From an uncultured Sphingomonadaceae bacterium (GTDB lineage Bacteria; Pseudomonadota; Alphaproteobacteria; Sphingomonadales; Sphingomonadaceae): 64,000 nt of DNA. Where the stretch lies: positions 864,770 through 928,769 of the forward strand of contig CAMYJW010000030.1 in assembly GCA_947258815.1 (NCBI GenBank), read 5' to 3'. Below, one piece after another: positions 36,699 to 39,582 of the stretch. The notes below the pieces were generated by a model that was not told the origin of the DNA, did not search any database, and saw only the letters and a program-made list of their open reading frames with translations. The translations under genes and the position numbers were made by a program. How positions within the stretch are numbered: position 1 is the stretch's first letter; each line of letters starts with the position of its first letter.

Positions 36699-36843
36699 TA
36701 CGATTTGGCAGGTTTGGCGGCACGAAATCACGACCTGCCGGGCACATGATCCACATCCCCATGTGCTTATGGATGCTTTTGGGCAACCCGGCGTTTCATT
36801 GACGCCCAGACGATAGACTCTCGCGATTTGCGCGGTGCGTGCT

Positions 36844-37398
36844 ATGGCTCCGGCCATGATCCGTTTTGCCCCCATATTTGCCACAGTGGCGACTTCGCTT
36901 TGCCTTGCAGCCTGCGCGAATACGACAGGGCAATACCCATCCCTAGCCAAGCGCGACGCTGAACGGGTAACGGGGTCTGCACAGTCCGTCGCCCCTCCTC
37001 CAACAGTGCCCGCCGCACCCGCTTTGGGGTCTGCTCCCGTGGCGAAGGTGCAAGCGGAACTTTCCGAACTGATCGCAACCGCAAACCGCGCGCATCGCGC
37101 TTTCCTTGCCCAACAGGGACCGACGGAACGCGCAATTTCCGCGGCGCGGGGCAGCGCGCGGGGCAGCACGAACTGGATAAGTGCACAAATCGCGCTTTCG
37201 CAACTGCAGGCGGCGCGCAGCAACGCAATGATCGCGCTGACCGATATGGATCAGCTTTTCGCCAGTGAGCGTGTTGCCCATCCCGGCGCGCTTTCTCCGG
37301 CAGCGCAAACGATCGGCGCTGCCCGCGCGAAGATAGAACCGCTGGTCACGCAGCAGGACCGGGTTCTTGACGCGCTGCTACGCCGGTTGGGGACGTAG
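36844..37398 (+). CDS. small lipoprotein of unknown function
   Basis: A roughly 184-residue lipoprotein with a signal peptide ending LAACANTT. After a Pro/Ala-rich linker the mature part is mostly helical (VQAELSELIATANRAHRAFL, LSQLQAARSNAMIALTDMDQL), suggesting a coiled coil or helical bundle. I do not recognise the family. ATG at 36844 or 36856 are both credible starts; the second gives a 20-residue signal peptide. Confidence 0.75.
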   Translation: MAPAMIRFAPIFATVATSLCLAACANTTGQYPSLAKRDAERVTGSAQSVAPPPTVPAAPALGSAPVAKVQAELSELIATANRAHRAFLAQQGPTERAISAARGSARGSTNWISAQIALSQLQAARSNAMIALTDMDQLFASERVAHPGALSPAAQTIGAARAKIEPLVTQQDRVLDALLRRLGT

Positions 37399-37521
37399 GC
37401 TGCGCGAACAGGCTCAAAGCCAGGCGCCTCGAAATCTCAATCTGGCGAAAGGCGCGCCAGACACGATCCTATCACGATCGGCCCGGCCGCGCCTTCTGCC
37501 ACGAATCAGAGTGTTTGAATC

Positions 37522-38007
37522 TCAGCGCCCCGGTGCTGGCAGATGTTCCGCCGCATCGTTGGCCAGTGCCAGTTCATACATGGCGTTGCAGTCAATATAG
37601 GCGCCTTCCGGCTTGCCCTGATCGTTCACACCGGCAAGTCCGCCTTCATACGATACGAAAAACACCACGCCTTCCGGCCCCACTTTGCGTTCGGCAGTCG
37701 GGCCGCCCATATCGAGATAAAAGTCTTCGTAGCGCAGATCGCGGCCCTCAACATTGAAACCGCCTTCGCGAATAAAATTCTGCACCTGCCCGTAACAGTA
37801 ATGTGCGGGGATCGTCGTGTTCGGCTCCGCCCTGAAGAGGGCCGTCCACATGCCCGATTGCCGATCAATGTGCGTCAATCGAAAGCTAAGACCTTCGAGC
37901 GGCCCTTCGGTCCATGGCAATTCATCGGGACGGACGATTGCCGAGCCATCAGCAAAGCGGCTTGCGCCCTTCGTCCTGTGTTCCCACTGTTCACCTTCTC
38001 TCGCCAT
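37522..38007 (-). CDS. ChrR-like cupin protein with altered metal site
   Basis: A 161-residue cupin resembling ChrR/acetylacetone-dioxygenase-type domains. RFADGSAIVRPDELPWT opens the domain. At the usual metal site it has PAHYCYGQVQ, so the second His of HxH is Cys and the later His is Gln; metal binding may be changed or lost. The C-terminus ends MYELALANDAAEHL. It lies about 200 bases downstream of a close paralogue on the same strand and was evidently duplicated. Function unknown. Confidence 0.8.
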   Translation of the reverse strand: MAREGEQWEHRTKGASRFADGSAIVRPDELPWTEGPLEGLSFRLTHIDRQSGMWTALFRAEPNTTIPAHYCYGQVQNFIREGGFNVEGRDLRYEDFYLDMGGPTAERKVGPEGVVFFVSYEGGLAGVNDQGKPEGAYIDCNAMYELALANDAAEHLPAPGR

Positions 38008-38204
38008 AATCAGTCAATCCTCTTCCCAAGCTTTGTTCGCATTCGCGACGACAGATTACCCGCCGTTCGCACAACAAGTCGCAATGCGCAGCGGGCCGCC
38101 GCTACGCAGATTTAATGTGACCCTGGACCGGGTCGCCCGTGGTTATTGTCCGCGTCAATCTCCGAAGCAGACATACCGCCCGCCCCGGAGACACATCAGA
38201 CTTG

Positions 38205-38708
38205 TCAGTTGAAGAATTCTTCGCGCGGCGGAGGTGGCGGATCGAGATGGTCTGCCGCGTTGTTTGCCAGCGCCGCCTTGTACATCCATTCGACGTCAAC
38301 ATAATCGCCTGCCGGATTGCCATCCGCATCCGCGCCGGAAATCCCGCCGTAGAAAATGCTGATGCTTTCCTGCCCGTCGCTGCCGATGATCGGCTCATGC
38401 GCAACGCTGCCACATTCGATATTGTATTCACCGGCGTTGATCCGGTCATGGACATAGGAATATCCGCCAGACGTCACATACACATGCACATCGCTGAAGT
38501 GATAATGGCTGTCCGTATGGGTATCCGGGTCGATCTTCATCATGACAGACCACATTCCGGTGTTTCGATTGATCGACATCAGTTTGAAATAGACACCCGG
38601 CAGCGCCCAAGGCGTCCAGGGCAGTTCATCAGGACGAACAATCATCGATCCGTCGGCAAAGCGTTCGGTCGCTCTGTTTGTCGGGGTGGAACCAGCTACG
38701 GTGGCCAT
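38205..38708 (-). CDS. ChrR-like cupin protein with intact HxH site
   Basis: A 167-residue cupin paralogous to its downstream neighbour: both share RFADGS, IVRPDELPWT, GMW and a C-terminal MY-ALAN-AA-HL pattern. This copy keeps SHYHFSDVHVY, a plausible metal-binding HxH with a third His, and so may be the catalytic member. Enzymes of this fold include acetylacetone dioxygenase and the zinc domain of the ChrR anti-sigma factor; which applies is not known. The flanking gaps (38008-38204 and 38709-38891) show no gene. Confidence 0.8.
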   Translation of the reverse strand: MATVAGSTPTNRATERFADGSMIVRPDELPWTPWALPGVYFKLMSINRNTGMWSVMMKIDPDTHTDSHYHFSDVHVYVTSGGYSYVHDRINAGEYNIECGSVAHEPIIGSDGQESISIFYGGISGADADGNPAGDYVDVEWMYKAALANNAADHLDPPPPPREEFFN

Positions 38709-38891
38709 TTCAATCTCCCATTGGGCTGGAATTCAGCAACAATCACGTATCACAGCATTGCCTTATGTAATATGGCATATCTAATATGAGTCAAGTGATC
38801 TAGCTCACCAAAACCGCAACACGCCGCGCGACCGGAAATGCCTATCTGAAACCGCGCCGCGTGGCTTTCGGAAATTTGCGTGCAAATTGCG

Positions 38892-39338
38892 TCACTGCCA
38901 GCGTTTCAGATCATCAAAATCGACCGTGCGCGGTTCTATCCACCGCCATTCGCCATTCGCTTTTTCGCGCTTCCAGAACCAGCTTTCGCTTTTAAGGTGA
39001 TCCATCGCGAACTCCGCAGCGGCAAAGGCATCGCGGCGATGACGCGCAGCTGCGCTGACCAGCACGATCGGATCGCCCGGATGCATCAGCCCGGTGCGAT
39101 GGATTATCAGCAGCCCTTCCAGAGGCCAGCGGCCCATCGCATCGTCTGCCAGCGATTCCATGCCCGGCAGCGTCAGCGGTTCATAATATTGCAGCTCCAG
39201 CGCCTCGACGCTGGCATCGCCGCGCACTTGCCCCAGAAAACTGACAATCCCTCCCGCCAGCGCCCGATCGGCGGAAAATCGGGCCAGCTCTGCCTGCGGA
39301 TCGAACGGCGCGGTCAGCAAACGCACATCGCGCGCCAT
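38892..39338 (-). CDS. moaE: molybdopterin synthase catalytic subunit MoaE
   Basis: Large subunit of molybdopterin synthase, which transfers sulfur from MoaD thiocarboxylate to cyclic pyranopterin monophosphate. In 148 residues, FLGQVRGD, LELQYYEPL, HRTGLMHPGDPIVLV and KSESWFWKRE, holding the active-site lysines, are present. ATG at 39338 lies one base after the moaD stop, indicating translational coupling and equal expression of the two subunits. Confidence 0.95.
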   Translation of the reverse strand: MARDVRLLTAPFDPQAELARFSADRALAGGIVSFLGQVRGDASVEALELQYYEPLTLPGMESLADDAMGRWPLEGLLIIHRTGLMHPGDPIVLVSAAARHRRDAFAAAEFAMDHLKSESWFWKREKANGEWRWIEPRTVDFDDLKRWQ

Positions 39339-39339
39339 A

Positions 39340-39582
39340 TCAGCCTCCGCTGACCGGCGGCAGAAATGCCAGTTCATCACCGTCGTGCAGCACCAGCGCG
39401 GCGGTGTCGTTCACCAGCGCGCCATTGACGGCGAGCCTGATCGTATCGGCCGTCAGCGCATCTGCCAGCGCAGGCTCAAGCGCGGCCAGCACGGTATCGA
39501 GCGTCGCTGCGAACGGCACCGCGCATTCGCCCGATCCGGCCACCGTTTCCAGCCGCCCCATGAACACGAGCCGCAACGCCAT
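39340..39582 (-). CDS. moaD: molybdopterin synthase sulfur carrier MoaD
   Basis: Ubiquitin-like sulfur carrier of 80 residues ending in the essential Gly-Gly (LPPVSGG) that is thiocarboxylated by MoeB. The middle IRLAVNGALVND and HDGDELAFLPP strands are typical. It sits 3 bases after moaA and 1 base before moaE in one operon. Confidence 0.95.
   Translation of the reverse strand: MALRLVFMGRLETVAGSGECAVPFAATLDTVLAALEPALADALTADTIRLAVNGALVNDTAALVLHDGDELAFLPPVSGG

Follow-up and report, generated by a model that had tools for sequence, protein, structure and literature searches.

Tandem Cupin_7 paralogues of a sphingomonad: a putative Fe(II) dioxygenase and a conserved neighbour that has lost the metal site

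The locus described here lies in the genome of an uncultured Sphingomonadaceae bacterium and was analysed as a stretch of 64,000 nucleotides, hereafter the window. Two cupin genes, A and B, are encoded on its minus strand, with A located 5' of B, between a lipoprotein-like open reading frame and moaE (Table 1). The intervals flanking the pair had been reported as free of genes by the first-pass annotation, and the sequence bears this out for 37399-37521 (123 bp, on the B side) and 38709-38891 (183 bp, on the A side); the spacer between A and B is likewise geneless, and the lengths of all three gaps are ordinary for intergenic DNA. The two genes may be co-transcribed, as no terminator-like site was found on the minus strand of this spacer, and a by-eye reading places a ribosome-binding-site-like GGGAAGAGG ahead of the B start.

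Table 1. Features of the cupin locus in window coordinates.
Feature	Position	Strand	Remarks
Lipoprotein-like ORF	36835-37398	+	Flanking gene on the B side
Cupin B	37522-38007	-	161 aa; AHYCYGQVQ at the metal site; probable non-catalytic partner
A-B spacer	38008-38204	-	197 bp, geneless
Cupin A	38205-38708	-	167 aa; SHYHFSDVH at residues 67-75; probable catalytic three-His Fe(II) subunit
Probable operator/promoter	38775-38794 (palindrome 38776-38788)	-	TTGAC followed by palindrome CATATTAGATATG
moaE	38892-39380	-	Flanking gene on the A side

The two proteins are unmistakably homologous, sharing 38% identity over 144 aa (BLASTP, E = 3e-39), and both pass the Pfam gathering cut-off of 27 bits for Cupin_7 (PF12973), with 65.6 bits for A and 44.1 bits for B, as do their relatives. 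The initial description of the genes as obvious duplicates thus stands as far as homology is concerned, but not in the sense of a recent duplication, because A and B fall into separate clades, both of which had arisen before the copies in the host species diverged. Each protein forms one clade in the phylogeny, with 100/99 support, and the pairing hence predates the divergence of these copies. A topology uniting A and B as a single clade is not rejected (p-AU 0.48) and would be compatible with a tandem origin of B from A. The Cupin_7 domain is also common to the anti-sigma factor ChrR (PDB 3o14), but A and B consist of the cupin domain only and lack the anti-sigma N-terminal domain of ChrR, and they score far below the cut-offs of the ChrR models (24.5 bits where 300 are required, and 20.3 where 124.5 are). 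Since the cupin domain is all that they have in common, regulation of the ChrR type was ruled out. Structure prediction from four-row alignments yielded AlphaFold models of A and B that were too poor for use (mean pLDDT 51 and 42). The same genome encodes a third, distant Cupin_7 protein with the full His set (L003 1510-1995; G000:C30, about 633,200), immediately following an ORF for a PQQ dehydrogenase, which shares 49-54% identity with its counterparts near two of the pairs described below, in Novosphingobium mangrovi and G786. A separate tandem duplication of Cupin_7 genes occurs in G330 (L090 660-1022 and 2145-2543), where the near-identical copies, 1.1 kb apart, both preserve an intact His site.

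A and B differ in the metal site, which was read from an alignment of 44 homologues comprising 40 non-B proteins, three full-length B proteins and one truncated B from G132. The site of A follows the pattern H68-x-H70-x4-H75 ... E98 ... H104, and His68, His70, Glu98 and His104 are kept in all 40 non-B homologues, with Tyr85 kept in 39 of them. At positions 68, 70, 75, 85, 98 and 104 A has H, H, H, Y, E and H, and the corresponding residues of B are H, C, Q, V, D and A, so that of the ligand set only His69 (equivalent to His68 of A) is retained, the other sites being occupied by Cys71, Gln76, Asp99 and Ala105 in B numbering. Across the three full B proteins His68 is again the sole residue preserved, with His70 replaced by C/N/N, Tyr85 by V/F/T, Glu98 by D/D/D and His104 by A/S/P; position 75 reads Q/Q/H, the His belonging to G786. 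The G132 relic extends over two of these positions, which are D and P. In place of the lost site, B displays specifically conserved residues of its own, among them Asp99, Arg107 (position 106 in A numbering) and Val118, while it retains the framework residues Trp31, Phe41, Trp53 and Gly81 (A numbering).

The three-His signature, an HxH in motif 1 plus one His in motif 2, is therefore present in A and missing from B. Both motifs quoted by the first-pass annotation, SHYHFSDVH in the upstream copy and AHYCYGQVQ in the downstream one, are found as given on the minus strand, and its contrast between an apparently competent and an altered copy holds. The His to Cys change that it singled out is real, but it understates the alteration, for the motif 2 His and nearby conserved residues are gone as well. 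Whether a Cys in place of His might still bind the same metal is accordingly largely beside the point, as two of the three His ligands have disappeared and the Cys is found only in the window genome, the two remaining full B proteins having Asn at this position. Judging from these residues, A is most likely a three-His Fe(II) dioxygenase, and B would bind no catalytic metal.

Homologue searches covered about 1,250 distinct genomes (handles up to G1248) and revealed intact A-B pairs in three of them: the window genome (G000), N. mangrovi HK4-1 (G006, locus NZ_JANZXA010000012), which belongs to the same Novosphingobium genus group, and G786, which represents another genus of the same family. The possibility that the pair exists in a single strain is thus excluded, its conservation extending over three species and two genera. 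Gene order (A, then B) and strand are identical in all three cases, full-length B adjoining A and A-clade genes adjoining B in three out of three. Identity to the window copies reaches 78% for A and 61% for B in N. mangrovi, and 55% and 40%, respectively, in G786. A contig scan using the B alignment as query returned N. mangrovi as its sole match, and B was found neither in plasmid and phage searches nor in a viral scan. Estimates of dN/dS between the window and N. mangrovi genes are about 0.08-0.12 for A and 0.14-0.16 for B, values that are rough because dS is near saturation; on this rough basis both genes look maintained under purifying selection. B evolves faster, with 54 invariant columns among the three sequences as compared to 77 in A. 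The G132 relic (L019 1492-1803) preserves some 66 C-terminal residues of B at 66% identity and adjoins the remains of a short-chain dehydrogenase as well as a gene resembling aldehyde dehydrogenases; the G132 genome was found to have no close A.

Comparison of the moaE region across relatives provides a view of how the pair came to reside there. Thirteen Novosphingobium relatives, N. mangrovi included, present a pair-free locus in which rplU and the lipoprotein gene are followed by moaE. For nine of these (L119, L121-L123, L126 and L129-L132) the lipoprotein gene and moaE were both located, and in the remaining four (L120, L125, L127 and L128) moaE and rplU were located and the lipoprotein was not detected; L124, whose stretch ends too early, was not counted. 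The N. mangrovi pair is found elsewhere in its genome, in a catabolic region. Taken together with a dip in G+C content across the pair (0.53-0.58, against about 0.61 in the window), the 13 relatives that lack the pair at this site indicate that it was probably inserted beside moaE in the window genome, and the data as a whole suggest that A and B move between bacteria as a unit. In L119, L122, L123 and L130 part of the gap between the lipoprotein gene and moaE is taken up by an ORF for a small membrane protein (about 140 aa in its complete form), preceded, in a by-eye reading, by FNR-like palindromes such as TTGACCGAAATCAA; the cupin pair of the window occupies the place of this ORF.

The upstream region also appears to accompany the pair. 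The CATATTAGATATG palindrome lies 68 bp upstream of A in the window, and the combination of TTGAC and this palindrome is common to the regions upstream of A in the window genome and in N. mangrovi, the alignment of which scores 19 against a maximum of 14 in shuffled sequences. With up to one mismatch allowed, a search for the 13-mer gives a single hit in either genome, in both cases upstream of A, and this constitutes good evidence, at the sequence level, that a promoter or operator travels with the pair. A one-mismatch copy in G239, located 3' of a hydroxyacyl-CoA dehydrogenase-like ORF, was taken as a chance occurrence.

Around the pair in the window there are no catabolic neighbours, and the substrate cannot be read from local context. 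The G786 pair forms part of a cluster, all on one strand, that also encodes a thiolase-like lipid-transfer protein, an acyl-CoA dehydrogenase, a flavin monooxygenase, a short-chain dehydrogenase (SDR), a membrane PQQ dehydrogenase and a VOC protein, and the surroundings of the N. mangrovi pair include a PQQ dehydrogenase, an FAD oxidoreductase, an SDR, a second cupin and a TonB receptor. Single A-like genes sit beside SDRs, VOC proteins and CoA-ligase-like genes (some of them assigned by reading the sequence), and an A-like relative on plasmid pJE1 is surrounded by amidohydrolases and acyl-CoA dehydrogenases. Relatives have been annotated, by similarity, as members of the 2,4'-dihydroxyacetophenone dioxygenase family. 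These neighbourhoods would fit a scheme in which a dehydrogenase produces a ketone that A cleaves with O2, the resulting acid then being activated with CoA. A-like cupins are recurrently found near a VOC (glyoxalase-like) protein (L085, L086, L088, L089, L092, L093, L094 and L117), with short-chain dehydrogenases also there in those loci whose genes were listed, and this recurrence suggests a shared catabolic module. A second, different cupin (Cupin_2/Cupin_7, with HWHT..EELVVL; L080 11094-11573 and L081 10254-10952) is found alongside A-type genes in both N. mangrovi and G239.

Characterized cupins offer two points of reference. Among solved structures, the acetylacetone-cleaving enzyme Dke1 (PDB 3bal; E = 0.001) and the protein 2o1q (E = 3e-5) have the best support as homologues of B. 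His62, His64, Glu98 and His104 of Dke1 align with His68, His70, Glu98 and His104 of A, and this metal site is absent from B. In Dke1, replacement of His62, His64 or His104 greatly reduces both Fe binding and activity (PMC4019311). Of the hydrophilic gate of Dke1 (Tyr70, Arg80 and Glu98) A has only the Glu, with Val76 and Val86 at the other positions when read with ungapped spacing. The second reference is 2,4'-dihydroxyacetophenone dioxygenase (DAD; PDB 4p9g and 5bpx), which, like its relative 3ebr, presents three His at a spacing that matches A, and whose active-site Tyr93 corresponds in spacing to Tyr85 of A, a Tyr lost in B. The match between A and DAD is nonetheless weak in sequence (E = 0.24 for A alone, 0.52 for the profile). 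DAD and 3ebr form tight dimers with a conserved interface, and in DAD the N-terminal strand is swapped into the partner (PMC4219425); these DAD dimers are described as consisting of one subunit type. B of the window pair is devoid of the site. A half-empty arrangement is known from bicupin dioxygenases, such as the quercetin dioxygenase of Aspergillus japonicus, in which one cupin carries the metal and the other does not (PMC4019311). There, however, both cupins are fused in one chain, while A and B are separate genes. A published cupin pseudoenzyme pair or an equivalent heteromer was not found in the literature searched, which takes in only a minority of subscription journals.

On balance, and from sequence evidence, we lean towards the view that A and B make up a mobile two-gene catabolic unit in which an Fe(II) cupin dioxygenase, A, forms a heteromer with B, a partner free of metal. 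A would be a non-heme enzyme of the Dke1/DAD type, with three His and a second-shell Glu, that probably cuts the C-C bond next to a ketone produced by the SDR or PQQ dehydrogenases encoded beside its relatives. B would be a paralogue that has lost the metal site and kept the fold signature, most likely pairing with A after the manner of the DAD and 3ebr homodimers and contributing structure or stability, or else a portion of the substrate pocket. Duplication of the gene for a homodimeric enzyme readily leads to a heterodimer, one half of which may then lose its site, as in the half-empty bicupins. A heteromer is favoured because B lacks the residues related to catalysis, keeps the framework and has been inherited and moved with A, and by analogy with the homodimers. 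The first-pass annotation had left the choice between a heteromeric enzyme and a sensor; the former appears better supported, since relatives and other pairs reside within catabolic gene clusters. We put forward more tentatively an extended version, in which the heteromer would be obligate, the metal-free paralogue, carrying Asp and Arg instead of the metal site, would complete or control the active site of its three-His partner, and the whole would constitute a two-gene counterpart of the half-empty bicupins, spread horizontally among sphingomonads as a promoter-plus-pair cassette.

Three other explanations have to be weighed against a heteromer. B might be a separate, metal-free protein that binds or senses a substrate or product of the pathway and forms no complex with A. 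The retention of the barrel signature with the metal site replaced by conserved Asp99 and Arg107, the occurrence of a Cupin_7 domain in the regulator ChrR and an A-B gap of 129-197 bp across pairs, wider than in a tight operon, are all compatible with such a role, but B shows neither a DNA-binding nor an anti-sigma domain in the Pfam search, and the other pairs are surrounded by enzymes and transporters instead of regulators, making a stand-alone sensor unlikely. A still smaller probability attaches to B being an enzyme with changed chemistry, using another metal through His69, Cys71 and further residues or acting as a metal-independent isomerase or lyase. One His is indeed kept in the three full B proteins, the G786 protein has another at position 75, and the conservation of Asp99, Arg107 and Val118 specifically in B would agree with a chemistry of its own; yet neither the would-be new ligand nor the pocket Tyr position is conserved, and this variability is unlike that of a constrained new active site.

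That B is simply a decaying, functionless duplicate seems very improbable. The truncated relic in G132 and the greater divergence of B would agree with decay, but B persists as a full-length open frame in three species, with a dN/dS of about 0.15 and invariant residues of its own, and it has been kept beside A at different chromosomal sites.

If the heteromeric arrangement proposed here is correct, the dioxygenase annotation would be wrong for one of the two genes, and A, when assayed without B, may be falsely scored as inactive. More generally, the A-B pair would then exemplify a route from a homodimeric cupin dioxygenase to a heteromer with a catalytically dead half, and would stand midway between single cupins and those bicupins, quercetin dioxygenase among them, whose two halves are fused.
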